A DNA stretch of 64,000 nt from Lysobacter enzymogenes (GTDB lineage Bacteria; Pseudomonadota; Gammaproteobacteria; Xanthomonadales; Xanthomonadaceae). Under the pieces are notes generated by a model that ran no database searches, was not told the origin of the DNA, and worked only from the letters and a program-made list of their open reading frames with translations. The position numbers and the translations under genes are program-made. Of this stretch, positions 53,380-55,598 are shown one piece after another; position 1 is the stretch's first letter, and every line of letters starts with the position of its first letter. The DNA is taken from assembly GCF_900106525.1 (NCBI RefSeq), contig NZ_FNOG01000003.1, positions 569,987 through 633,986 of the forward strand, given 5' to 3'.

Positions 53380-53487
53380 GAGGGTCCTCCGTTGCTCGCG
53401 AGCTTAGCCGATGCGGGTGCGTATGCGGTGCCGCGCCGTACCGGCAGCGCCGTCTCATGGAACCGGCTCGATGGGGCTGCAGCTGTT

Positions 53488-53574
53488 TTGTGGGAGGGCC
53501 TTCAGGCCCGAAGCTCTTCTTTCGGATCGCCGCGATCTGAGACAAAGGCATCGGGCCTGAAGGCCCTCCCACAA
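53488..53574. repeat. second copy of the GTGGGAGGGCC inverted-repeat family
   Basis: The left arm starting at 53488 and the right arm ending at 53574 repeat the element at 1234-1322 almost exactly (arms of about 24 bases, different loop). It lies between the divergent acylase and the asnB leader. No gene is seen in the 287 bases between them apart from this element. Confidence 0.88.
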
Positions 53575-53666
53575 CCGCGCGCCCGAACGCAGCCAAAGCG
53601 AGGCGGCCGCCGCCGATTCGACCGGCGGCGCTTGCATCCGGCCCGAACCTCAAGCAGGATCGGCCC

Positions 53667-53798
53667 ATGACCTCCCGCTTCGCCACCGCCGAATTCCGCC
53701 GCGCCGCTTCCGCCGGCCGCGCGCGCGAGGCCGTGTCGAACCTGGGCGCCAACAACAATAACCGCAATAACGCCAGCCTCCCGCGGGCCGGCGATTAG
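53667..53798 (+). CDS. 43-codon Asn-rich leader peptide upstream of asnB
   Basis: The frame starts at an ATG seven bases after AGGA and ends at TAG. It has Asn at codons 25, 29, 30, 31, 32, 34 and 35, so six of seven consecutive codons (53751-53771) are Asn. Two of the seven are the AAT codon, which GC-rich coding regions avoid. The next gene is asparagine synthetase, and a strong hairpin follows the stop. This is the design of a leader peptide whose translation reports charged Asn-tRNA. A peptide product with its own function (for example a RiPP) is less likely because no maturation gene is present. Confidence 0.75.
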   Translation: MTSRFATAEFRRAASAGRAREAVSNLGANNNNRNNASLPRAGD

Positions 53799-53861
53799 CG
53801 CGCGCAACACACGCTAAATCGCTCACGAAGCCCGCGCCGACCAGCGCGGGCTTCGTCGTTT
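53782..53861 (+). terminator. asnB attenuator: terminator hairpin and competing antiterminator
   Basis: ACGAAGCCCGCGC (53825-53837) and GCGCGGGCTTCGT (53844-53856) form a perfect 13-bp stem with a six-base loop, then CGTTTC. CGCGGGC at 53782-53788 can instead pair with GCCCGCG at 53830-53836, which would break the terminator. A ribosome finishing the leader peptide (stop at 53796) would cover 53782-53788 and allow termination. One stalled on the Asn codons (53751-53771) would leave it free and allow read-through into asnB. The same 53786-53793 segment can also pair with 53711-53718. The T-tract is short (three T), a weak point. Confidence 0.7.
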
Positions 53862-53912
53862 CAGGCCTTCGAAATCCCAACCCATCGCTGCAACCTTCCT
53901 GGAGATTCCCCG

Positions 53913-55598
53913 ATGTGCTCGATCCTCGGCTTGTTCGACCTGCGCGCCGGCGCCGACCTGCGCCCGCTCAGGCCCCTGGCGTTGTCGCTGTCGGCGCGAC
54001 AACGCCACCGCGGCCCCGACTGGTCCGGCGTGCACGCCGAACCGCGCGCGATCCTGGTGCACGAGCGTCTGGCCATCGTCGATCCCAGCGGCGGCTCGCA
54101 GCCGCTGCGCTCGGCCGACGGCGAACTGGCGCTGGCGGTCAACGGCGAGATCTACAACCACCGCGAACTCGAGCAGCAGCTCGCCCAGCCCTATGCGTTC
54201 CAGACCAAGTCCGACTGCGAAGTGGTCAACGCGCTCTATCGCGAAGGCCTGGAGCCGGCCGAGCTGCTGAACCGCCTCAACGGCATCTTCGCTTTCGCCC
54301 TGTGGGACAGCGCGCGCGGGCGCTACCTGATCGCGCGCGATCCGATCGGCGTGTGCCCGCTGTACTGGGGCCACGACGCCGACGGCCGCCTGTGGGTGGC
54401 CTCGGAAATGAAGGCGCTGGCGCGGCTGTGCGACGACGTCGCGCCGTTCCCGCCCGGCCACTACTACGACAGCGACGTCGGCGCGCCGGTGAAGTATTAC
54501 CAGCGCCCGTGGCGCGACTACGACGCGGTGCAGGGCGTGGAAGCCGACAAGCGCGAACTGCGCGAAGCGTTCGAGCGCGCCGTGCACCGGCAGATGATGA
54601 GCGACGTGCCCTACGGCGTGCTGCTGTCCGGCGGCCTGGATTCCTCGCTGGTCGCCGCCTGCGCGGCGCGCTTCGCCCGCCGCCGGATCGAGGAGGACGA
54701 CCAGTCCGAAGCCTGGTGGCCGCGCCTGCATTCCTTCGCCATCGGCCTGGACGGCTCGCCCGACCTGGCCGCGGCCGAAATCGCGGCGCAGGCGCTGGGC
54801 ACCGTGCACCACGGCTTCACCTACACCTTCGAGGAAGGCCTGGACGCGTTGCCGGACGTGATCGCCCACATCGAGACCTACGATGTCACCACCATCCGCG
54901 CCTCCACGCCGATGTTCCTGCTGGCGCGGCGGATCAAGGCGATGGGGGTGAAGATGGTGCTCTCGGGCGAGGGCAGCGACGAGATCTTCGGCGGCTATCT
55001 GTATTTCCACAAAGCGCCCAACGCGCGCGAGTTCCACGAAGAGCTGGTGCGCAAGCTCGACGCGCTGCACAGCTTCGACTGCCTGCGCGCGAACAAGTCG
55101 ATGATGGCCTGGGGCGTGGAGCCGCGGGTGCCGTTCCTGGACGTGGAGTTCCTGGACGCGGCCATGCGCATCGACGCGAGCGCCAAGATGGTCGACAAGG
55201 CCGCCGGCAAGATCGAGAAGTCGATCCTGCGCGAAGCGTTCGAAGGCTATCTGCCCGATTCGATCCTGTGGCGGCAGAAGGAGCAGTTCAGCGACGGCGT
55301 CGGCTACGGCTGGATCGACGGGCTCAAGGCCCATGCCGAGGCCCAGGTCAGCGACCGCGACCTCGCCGCGGCGGCGGTGCGCTTCCCGATCAACACCCCG
55401 CAGACCAAAGAAGCGTATTACTACCGCAGCATCTTCGAGCGCCACTTTCCCGGCGACGCTTGCGCCAACACAGTCCCGGGCGGCAAGTCGATCGCCTGCT
55501 CTTCGCCGGCGGCGATCGCCTGGGACGCGGCCTTCGCCAACGCGGCCGATCCGTCGGGGCGCGCGGTGGCGGGAGTGCATCAGGCGGCGTTGGCCTGA
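53913..55598 (+). CDS. asnB: asparagine synthetase B, glutamine-hydrolysing
   Basis: AsnB makes asparagine from aspartate, ATP and glutamine. The 561-residue protein has the N-terminal Cys2 of the class II glutaminase domain (MCSILGLFD) with RHRGPDWSG and LAVNGEIYNHREL. The synthetase domain has the PP-loop VLLSGGLDSSLVA near 230, LSGEGSDEIFGGYLYFHKAP near 350 and EPRVPFLDVEFLD near 405. Its length and order match Escherichia coli AsnB. GGAG lies eight bases before the start. The 114 bases upstream hold the attenuator described above. No lasso-peptide partner genes are nearby. Confidence 0.97.
   Translation: MCSILGLFDLRAGADLRPLRPLALSLSARQRHRGPDWSGVHAEPRAILVHERLAIVDPSGGSQPLRSADGELALAVNGEIYNHRELEQQLAQPYAFQTKSDCEVVNALYREGLEPAELLNRLNGIFAFALWDSARGRYLIARDPIGVCPLYWGHDADGRLWVASEMKALARLCDDVAPFPPGHYYDSDVGAPVKYYQRPWRDYDAVQGVEADKRELREAFERAVHRQMMSDVPYGVLLSGGLDSSLVAACAARFARRRIEEDDQSEAWWPRLHSFAIGLDGSPDLAAAEIAAQALGTVHHGFTYTFEEGLDALPDVIAHIETYDVTTIRASTPMFLLARRIKAMGVKMVLSGEGSDEIFGGYLYFHKAPNAREFHEELVRKLDALHSFDCLRANKSMMAWGVEPRVPFLDVEFLDAAMRIDASAKMVDKAAGKIEKSILREAFEGYLPDSILWRQKEQFSDGVGYGWIDGLKAHAEAQVSDRDLAAAAVRFPINTPQTKEAYYYRSIFERHFPGDACANTVPGGKSIACSSPAAIAWDAAFANAADPSGRAVAGVHQAALA

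Follow-up and report, generated by a model that had tools for sequence, protein, structure and literature searches.

A predicted asparagine-codon attenuator leader ahead of asnB in Lysobacter and related bacteria

Results

Organisation of the asnB upstream region

The window analysed here, a 64,000-nt stretch of the Lysobacter enzymogenes genome, contains a gene for a glutamine-hydrolysing asparagine synthetase, asnB, whose product scores 866.7 bits against the NCBIfam asparagine synthase B model NF006949 (cut-off 499). The DNA in front of this gene carries a short reading frame, a hairpin and a set of mutually exclusive complementary segments, all on the same strand, which we list with their coordinates in the window.

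53632..53637, + strand: −35-like hexamer TTGCAT, 17 nt 5' of the −10-like hexamer; the TTG is kept at about −36 from the leader ATG
53655..53660, + strand: −10-like hexamer CAGGAT, 6 nt 5' of the ATG; taken for a ribosome binding site in the first-pass annotation
53667..53798, + strand: leader peptide reading frame, 43 aa, predicted to be leaderless; a like frame precedes asnB in 155 of 171 distinct family loci
53751..53771, + strand: control codons AAC AAC AAT AAC CGC AAT AAC, six of seven for Asn; AAC and AAT exchange in relatives
53771..53793, + strand: predicted 1:2 hairpin holding strand 2 (53771-53779 with 53785-53793), from the RNAalifold consensus of 57 leaders
53782..53788, + strand: strand 2, the left arm of the putative antiterminator, CGCGGGC, within the reading frame; covaries with 53830-53836
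53830..53836, + strand: strand 3, GCCCGCG, common to antiterminator and terminator; covariation
53825..53856, + strand: predicted intrinsic terminator hairpin, 13 bp with a 6-nt loop; stem pairing kept in relatives
53857..53865, + strand: weak T-rich tail, CGTTTCAGG, in the window sequence
53913..55598, + strand: asnB

The frame runs from an ATG at 53667 to a stop codon at 53796-53798, and the stem of the hairpin is perfect (53825-53837 with 53844-53856). The first-pass annotation, which had proposed an attenuator from the run of six Asn codons in seven within a 43-aa frame, from a perfect 13-bp hairpin followed by asnB at 53913, and from the complementarity of CGCGGGC to GCCCGCG, placed each of these elements correctly. 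The pattern AAYAAYAAYNNNAAYAAY occurs twice in the whole 6.26-Mb genome, and one of the two occurrences is at the asnB leader.

The leader is conserved ahead of asnB throughout the family

The comparison of asnB upstream regions from relatives that the first-pass annotation had proposed was carried out on genomes of the family, 187 of 198 of which have an asnB match at E <= 0.001. Upstream DNA was taken for 150 loci (30 + 120); one of these, L019, has only 6 nt upstream and was dropped, and another, L231, repeats L029, leaving 149 rows and 148 distinct loci. By automatic criteria, namely a reading frame with at least three Asn codons in eight and a CC[CT]GC hairpin as the best hairpin, 142 of the 149 rows have the leader and hairpin before asnB. 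Inspection raised this to 148 rows, or 147 of 148 distinct loci: in L014 and L118 the leader sits further upstream, in L122, L159 and L230 it is there with a hairpin that is outranked, variant or imperfect, and in L135 it is there with a thinned Asn run. L222 is the sole locus of this set with no leader.

We extended the comparison to more divergent family asnB loci (23 from 27 picked), using a criterion of four Asn codons in eight and up to 900 nt of upstream DNA. The Asn run and terminator are found in eight of them (L253-L259 and L275) and are absent from the 900 nt or less upstream of the other 15 (L260-L274). Taken together, the Asn run and the hairpin are kept in 155 of 171 distinct family loci; the 16 of the 187 matching genomes outside this count comprise that of L019 and others with strong (such as G176) as well as weak matches. 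The nearest named relative among the loci fetched is Lysobacter sp. yr284. The asnB genes of L260-L274 (family f1), which are without the leader, are 64-67% identical to that of the window.

The spacing between the hairpin and asnB ranges from about 25 to about 360 nt across relatives. In L014 and L118, some 280-360 nt that include G+C-rich repeats lie between the leader and terminator and asnB, as if inserted. In one genus, g7 (L119, L130, L131, L133, L135-L137 and L139), the Asn run is thinner (ANARNHALANHP in L135) and the terminator is kept, as if attenuation were relaxing. The short T-tract had been named as a weak point of the attenuator reading, and for the window this is a fair description, with 6 T in the 12 nt after GCGGG; relatives are better, with a median of 8 over 180 leaders.

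Presence outside the family and chance expectation

A second set of loci came from named-genome contigs; it shares organisms with the family set, and the two counts are kept apart. Of its 43 members L031-L073, 40 of 42 scorable loci pass both criteria; L042 and L067 fail, and L051 is without a scorable frame and without a leader. Beyond these, none of 37 further loci, mostly from marine gammaproteobacteria (L074-L110), passes both: six have only a frame with three or four Asn in eight codons and one has only the hairpin core. At the level of the order (20 loci), the Asn run and terminator occur together in both f2 loci and in three of five f12 loci, a fourth f12 locus having the terminator only, and do not occur together in f9 (0/8), f7 (0/2), f5 (0/1), f10 (0/1) or a divergent f1 locus (0/1).

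Among 1096 random 450-nt windows drawn from loci L001-L073, 16 had a frame with three Asn in eight codons, none had more, and none met the joint criterion of an Asn frame with a CC[CT]GC hairpin. At a threshold of E <= 0.01, an RNA model of the leader matched at least 97 of the 119 family genomes. We considered whether the leader might belong to a wider Asn regulon and rejected this, as 16 stretches examined around secondary matches of the model gave no Asn leader before any gene other than asnB. They comprise four ilvC leaders, four terminators behind tRNA-Glu genes, an asnB leader at a contig edge (L278), a stretch that looks like coding sequence (L287) and, for the remainder, mostly gene ends with a terminator. 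The ilvC leaders (L280, L283, L285 and L291) have a frame of the SILVVVLIT or LVLVLIT type and a CCCCGCACT terminator before ketol-acid reductoisomerase, the gene having been checked in L283. Judged from their sequences, they are apparently branched-chain attenuators; they differ from the asnB leader in using codons for Ile, Leu and Val and match its RNA model weakly.

Control codons and the leader peptide

Across relatives the Asn positions exchange AAC and AAT and stay Asn. The share of AAT is far larger in the leader tails (199 of 413 Asn codons) than in the bodies of the asnB genes that follow them (84 of 607); attenuation leaders with a codon bias have been described before (PMC1183508). 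The frame 5' of the Asn run differs in length and sequence among relatives, conservation being confined to the Asn run and the RNA-pairing tail. The peptide has no NCBIfam match.

A promoter-like pattern abuts the leader ATG

The first-pass annotation had credited the leader frame with a good ribosome binding site and had noted the lack of a recognised promoter. A plain consensus scan of 53380-53930 does indeed find no promoter, because CAGGAT is a poor −10. Over the relatives, however, a promoter-like pattern lies directly 5' of the leader ATG: of 100 unique leaders in which just one ATG can serve as the start, 94 contain TTG-N19-21-NANNNT, and in 92 the pattern stops 6 or 7 nt short of that ATG, against 1.75 per 100 in single-base shuffles over all distances. 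In a wider set 157 of 169 leaders fit the pattern, a looser count since several in-frame ATG or GTG starts were allowed. Fifteen leaders from Rhodanobacteraceae or neighbouring groups have similar spacing and a different −10, with 2/15 fitting the strict pattern and 15/15 a much looser one. Among some 15 f2, f12 and f1 loci with an Asn run or terminator (L233-L236, L238, L239, L253-L259 and L275), only L253-L257 and L275 fit strictly, and none of the order-level f2 and f12 loci does.

Shine-Dalgarno-like 4-mers occur 5' of the leader ATG about as often as expected by chance (20 of 100 leaders; 19.8 in shuffles), and on these grounds we rejected a Shine-Dalgarno start for the leader. Of 191 loci, 182 do have such a word ahead of asnB itself. 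The AGGA that had been read as a ribosome binding site is present in the window's genus and falls inside the conserved −10-like hexamer; in that genus it could be both −10 and ribosome site. Since the promoter-like pattern ends 6-7 nt before the ATG, the leader transcript probably starts at the leader ATG and is leaderless.

Covariation of the terminator and antiterminator

For the pairing analysis we aligned the distinct leaders of the PRAGD/PQAGD type, 57 in all, defined by the tail motif P[RQ][AV][GD][DR] (alignment A1), and the covariation counts refer to that leader type. The terminator is paired in 97.4% of cells, 7 of its 11 pairs have changes on both sides, and 65 cells are changed on both sides as compared with 15.9 in shuffles; sliding the arms against each other destroys the signal. 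The antiterminator formed by strands 2 and 3 is paired in 83.6% of cells, with 18 double changes (5.4 in shuffles). In these 57 rows, codon 16 of the frame changes from CGG to CAG exactly where the left arm of the terminator changes from CCCGC to CCTGC, and column pair 47-110 is GC in 40 rows, AU in 17 and broken in none (48 and 19, again with no exception, when identical rows are kept). The other terminator arm keeps its G in 15 of the 17 AU rows, leaving a U.G wobble in the terminator. This indicates that the left arm follows the reading frame rather than the other terminator arm, and that the 2:3 pairing is what is kept. Thus the covariation called for in the first-pass annotation is found in the terminator and in pair 47-110 of the antiterminator, and the complementarity of 53782-53788 and 53830-53836 is one that covaries in relatives. 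For doubly changed pairs and for pair types the antiterminator in A1 does not exceed shuffles, its count being equalled or passed by 142 of 500 for the former and by all 500 for the latter, so that its signal is mostly that of one column pair in related rows.

Over all leader types, 136 of 182 leaders scored above 95 of 100 shuffles for the 2:3 pairing and the other 46 fell short of that mark; these are simple shuffles, a weaker test than the alignment. With every fourth leader scored against swapped partners, the mean 2:3 score was 21.7 for true partners and 18.1 for swapped ones, the highest of 200 swaps being 20.1. The pairing is often just 6-8 bp. Where strand 2 is clear (150 of 182 leaders tried), it follows the last Asn codon by 9-13 nt in 130.

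RNAalifold, run on the 57 rows of this one leader type with no structure given, adds a predicted hairpin between 53771-53779 and 53785-53793, in which strand 1 holds strand 2. This 1:2 hairpin is, on sequence grounds, the element that completes a trp-like set of pairings. When the segment 53772-53839 is folded alone it adopts the antiterminator fold (−26.4 kcal/mol), and when the whole leader to 53860 is folded the terminator is formed.

Asparagine supply and the history of the leader

None of 40 family genomes has AsnA and none has GatB, while AsnS is above cut-off in 39, the fortieth being a fragmented genome. With AsnA and GatB absent and AsnS present, free asparagine should be what Asn-tRNA is made from, and the charging of this tRNA should report the free asparagine of the cell. 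Since asnB is the synthetase gene seen, a sensor of Asn-tRNA ahead of it would be the expected feedback.

In a quick, midpoint-rooted protein tree of 130 AsnB sequences, 76 of them with a leader, the leader label needs three changes, compared with a mean of 41.6 when labels are shuffled. L019, L051, a repeat of the window's gene and loci known by upstream DNA alone were left out of this tree. All 76 leader-bearing genes fall in one clade with an SH-aLRT support of 99, and the distribution fits one gain and two losses. Two genes in the clade have no leader: one comes from a Holophagales MAG (L042) and the other from Rhodococcus sp. RD6.2 (L067). Both look like cases of asnB transfer or of misbinned contigs.

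Discussion

Leader-peptide attenuators are well known for other amino acids, and the mechanism class is classical. The enterobacterial trp, his, thr, leu and ilv leaders consist of a short reading frame rich in codons for the end product, alternative 1:2, 2:3 and 3:4 pairings, and an intrinsic terminator. The asnB leader has the same type of frame, the same pairings and a terminator before a biosynthetic gene, and differs in the amino acid, in the gene and in its predicted leaderless start. In other words, the sequence features of the class are all found at this locus: a frame of Asn codons, a predicted terminator, a mutually exclusive antiterminator and a competing 1:2 hairpin.

We consider it very likely that the leader is a ribosome-mediated transcription attenuator that senses the charging of Asn-tRNA and controls asnB. 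In this model transcription would start at, or within one base of, the leader ATG, and the bare 5' end would be where a ribosome loads. Under a shortage of charged Asn-tRNA, the ribosome would stall in the Asn run and cover strand 1 (53771-53779). This would leave strand 2 (53782-53788) available to strand 3 (53830-53836); their pairing would block the terminator, and asnB would be transcribed. When Asn-tRNA is charged, the ribosome would reach the stop codon and cover strand 2; alternatively, with no ribosome on the leader, the 1:2 hairpin would form. With strand 2 covered or held in either way, the 3:4 hairpin could form and transcription would end at about 53860. The Asn frame, the predicted terminator, the antiterminator pairing, the promoter geometry and the link to asnB are conserved, as is the 1:2 hairpin within one leader type; the transcription start, translation, stalling, termination and the response to asparagine are steps that we infer. 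The interpretation of the locus as an Asn leader-peptide attenuator in the first-pass annotation is upheld with corrections: the supposed ribosome binding site is more probably the −10 of a leaderless transcript, and the 1:2 hairpin is added.

The frame could instead be the gene of a small conserved protein, complete with a terminator, asnB being served by a separate downstream promoter. The promoter-like pattern, the conserved C-terminal motif and the terminator would all suit such a gene. Conservation of the peptide is limited, however, to the Asn run and the RNA-pairing tail, the R to Q change in that tail is matched in the non-coding arm of the terminator, and the peptide is without an NCBIfam match, all of which makes us regard a small-protein gene as highly improbable. 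A simple scan also finds no promoter between the terminator and asnB, which counts for little as the same scan misses the promoter of the leader. Scarcely more credible is a leader that reads Asn codons and acts through Rho-dependent polarity, translation coupling or RNA stability in place of an intrinsic terminator. The weak T tract of the window would favour such a mode of action. Against it, covariation preserves the terminator stem across the 57 rows, and a T-rich tail is present in most relatives; the widely varying gap between hairpin and gene also argues against a masked ribosome site at asnB.

A different kind of possibility is that, besides attenuation, the terminated leader RNA or its peptide works in trans, in the manner of rnTrpL and peTrpL of Sinorhizobium. 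S. meliloti trpL offers the precedent, as an attenuator leader that is leaderless and has trans roles (PMC7298713). The stretch of the asnB leader peptide ahead of the Asn run lacks conservation, and we think an added role in trans unlikely, if somewhat less so than the two readings above. We return to the attenuator itself, for which the leaderless start has precedents. The leader transcript of S. meliloti trpL (rnTrpL) is described in the same paper as beginning at the ATG of its reading frame, the arrangement predicted here; there the amino acid is Trp, the organism Sinorhizobium, and functions in trans were shown. The leader frames LeuL and TrpL of Streptomyces lividans are likewise transcribed leaderless according to PMC8079986; these concern Leu and Trp, and some of them are described there as being without a typical terminator.

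The mechanism is therefore a known one, and the amino acid appears to be new. Asparagine is sensed in another way in Firmicutes, where Asn T-box leaders respond to the charging of Asn-tRNA ahead of asparagine genes; in a T-box the tRNA is bound directly by the RNA and no leader peptide is involved. A T-box or other known Rfam leader was rejected for this locus, as nothing in the window matches at gathering score. The Rfam search suggested in the first-pass annotation gave, for the asnB leader, sub-threshold scores to Thr_leader (24.9 bits; gathering 55) and Leu_leader (22.8 bits; gathering 50) and no leader family at gathering score. That annotation knew of no Asn leader-peptide attenuator, and within Rfam and the open-access PMC papers searched we likewise found no Asn or asnB leader described; a printed prediction may exist elsewhere. 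In the passages of the Xanthomonas sX13 paper that bear on it (PMC3771888), the AsnB2 gene is named only as a tested transcript.

We suggest as likely that this is the first ribosome-mediated attenuator to respond to asparagine, that it arose a single time in the asnB lineage of the Xanthomonadaceae (Lysobacteraceae) and Rhodanobacteraceae, and that it is leaderless, with ribosome loading tied to the start of transcription, and enriched in AAU relative to the asnB genes. If this is correct, asparagine is one more amino acid that leader peptides sense, and the model would explain a possible regulation of asnB in a group that includes Xanthomonas, Stenotrophomonas and Lysobacter and in which AsnA was found in 0/40 genomes. 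The covariation and steady geometry of more than 100 leaders would also offer a natural series for studying stall position, leaderless initiation and codon choice.

Two further observations concern the surroundings of the leader and its distribution. A 22-bp inverted repeat, with arms at 53490-53511 and 53551-53572, lies 5' of the leader promoter; similar stretches occupy roughly the corresponding position in L002 and L031, and it looks like a REP-type element. Among L074-L110 there are two odd cases, L079 and L085. In the latter, a Rubrivirga MAG with a distant asnB, a GTG-initiated frame containing NLTNANRN, a 13-bp hairpin and a long run of T come one after the other about 200 to 40 nt 5' of the gene, and their sequence makes an independent Asn attenuator possible.
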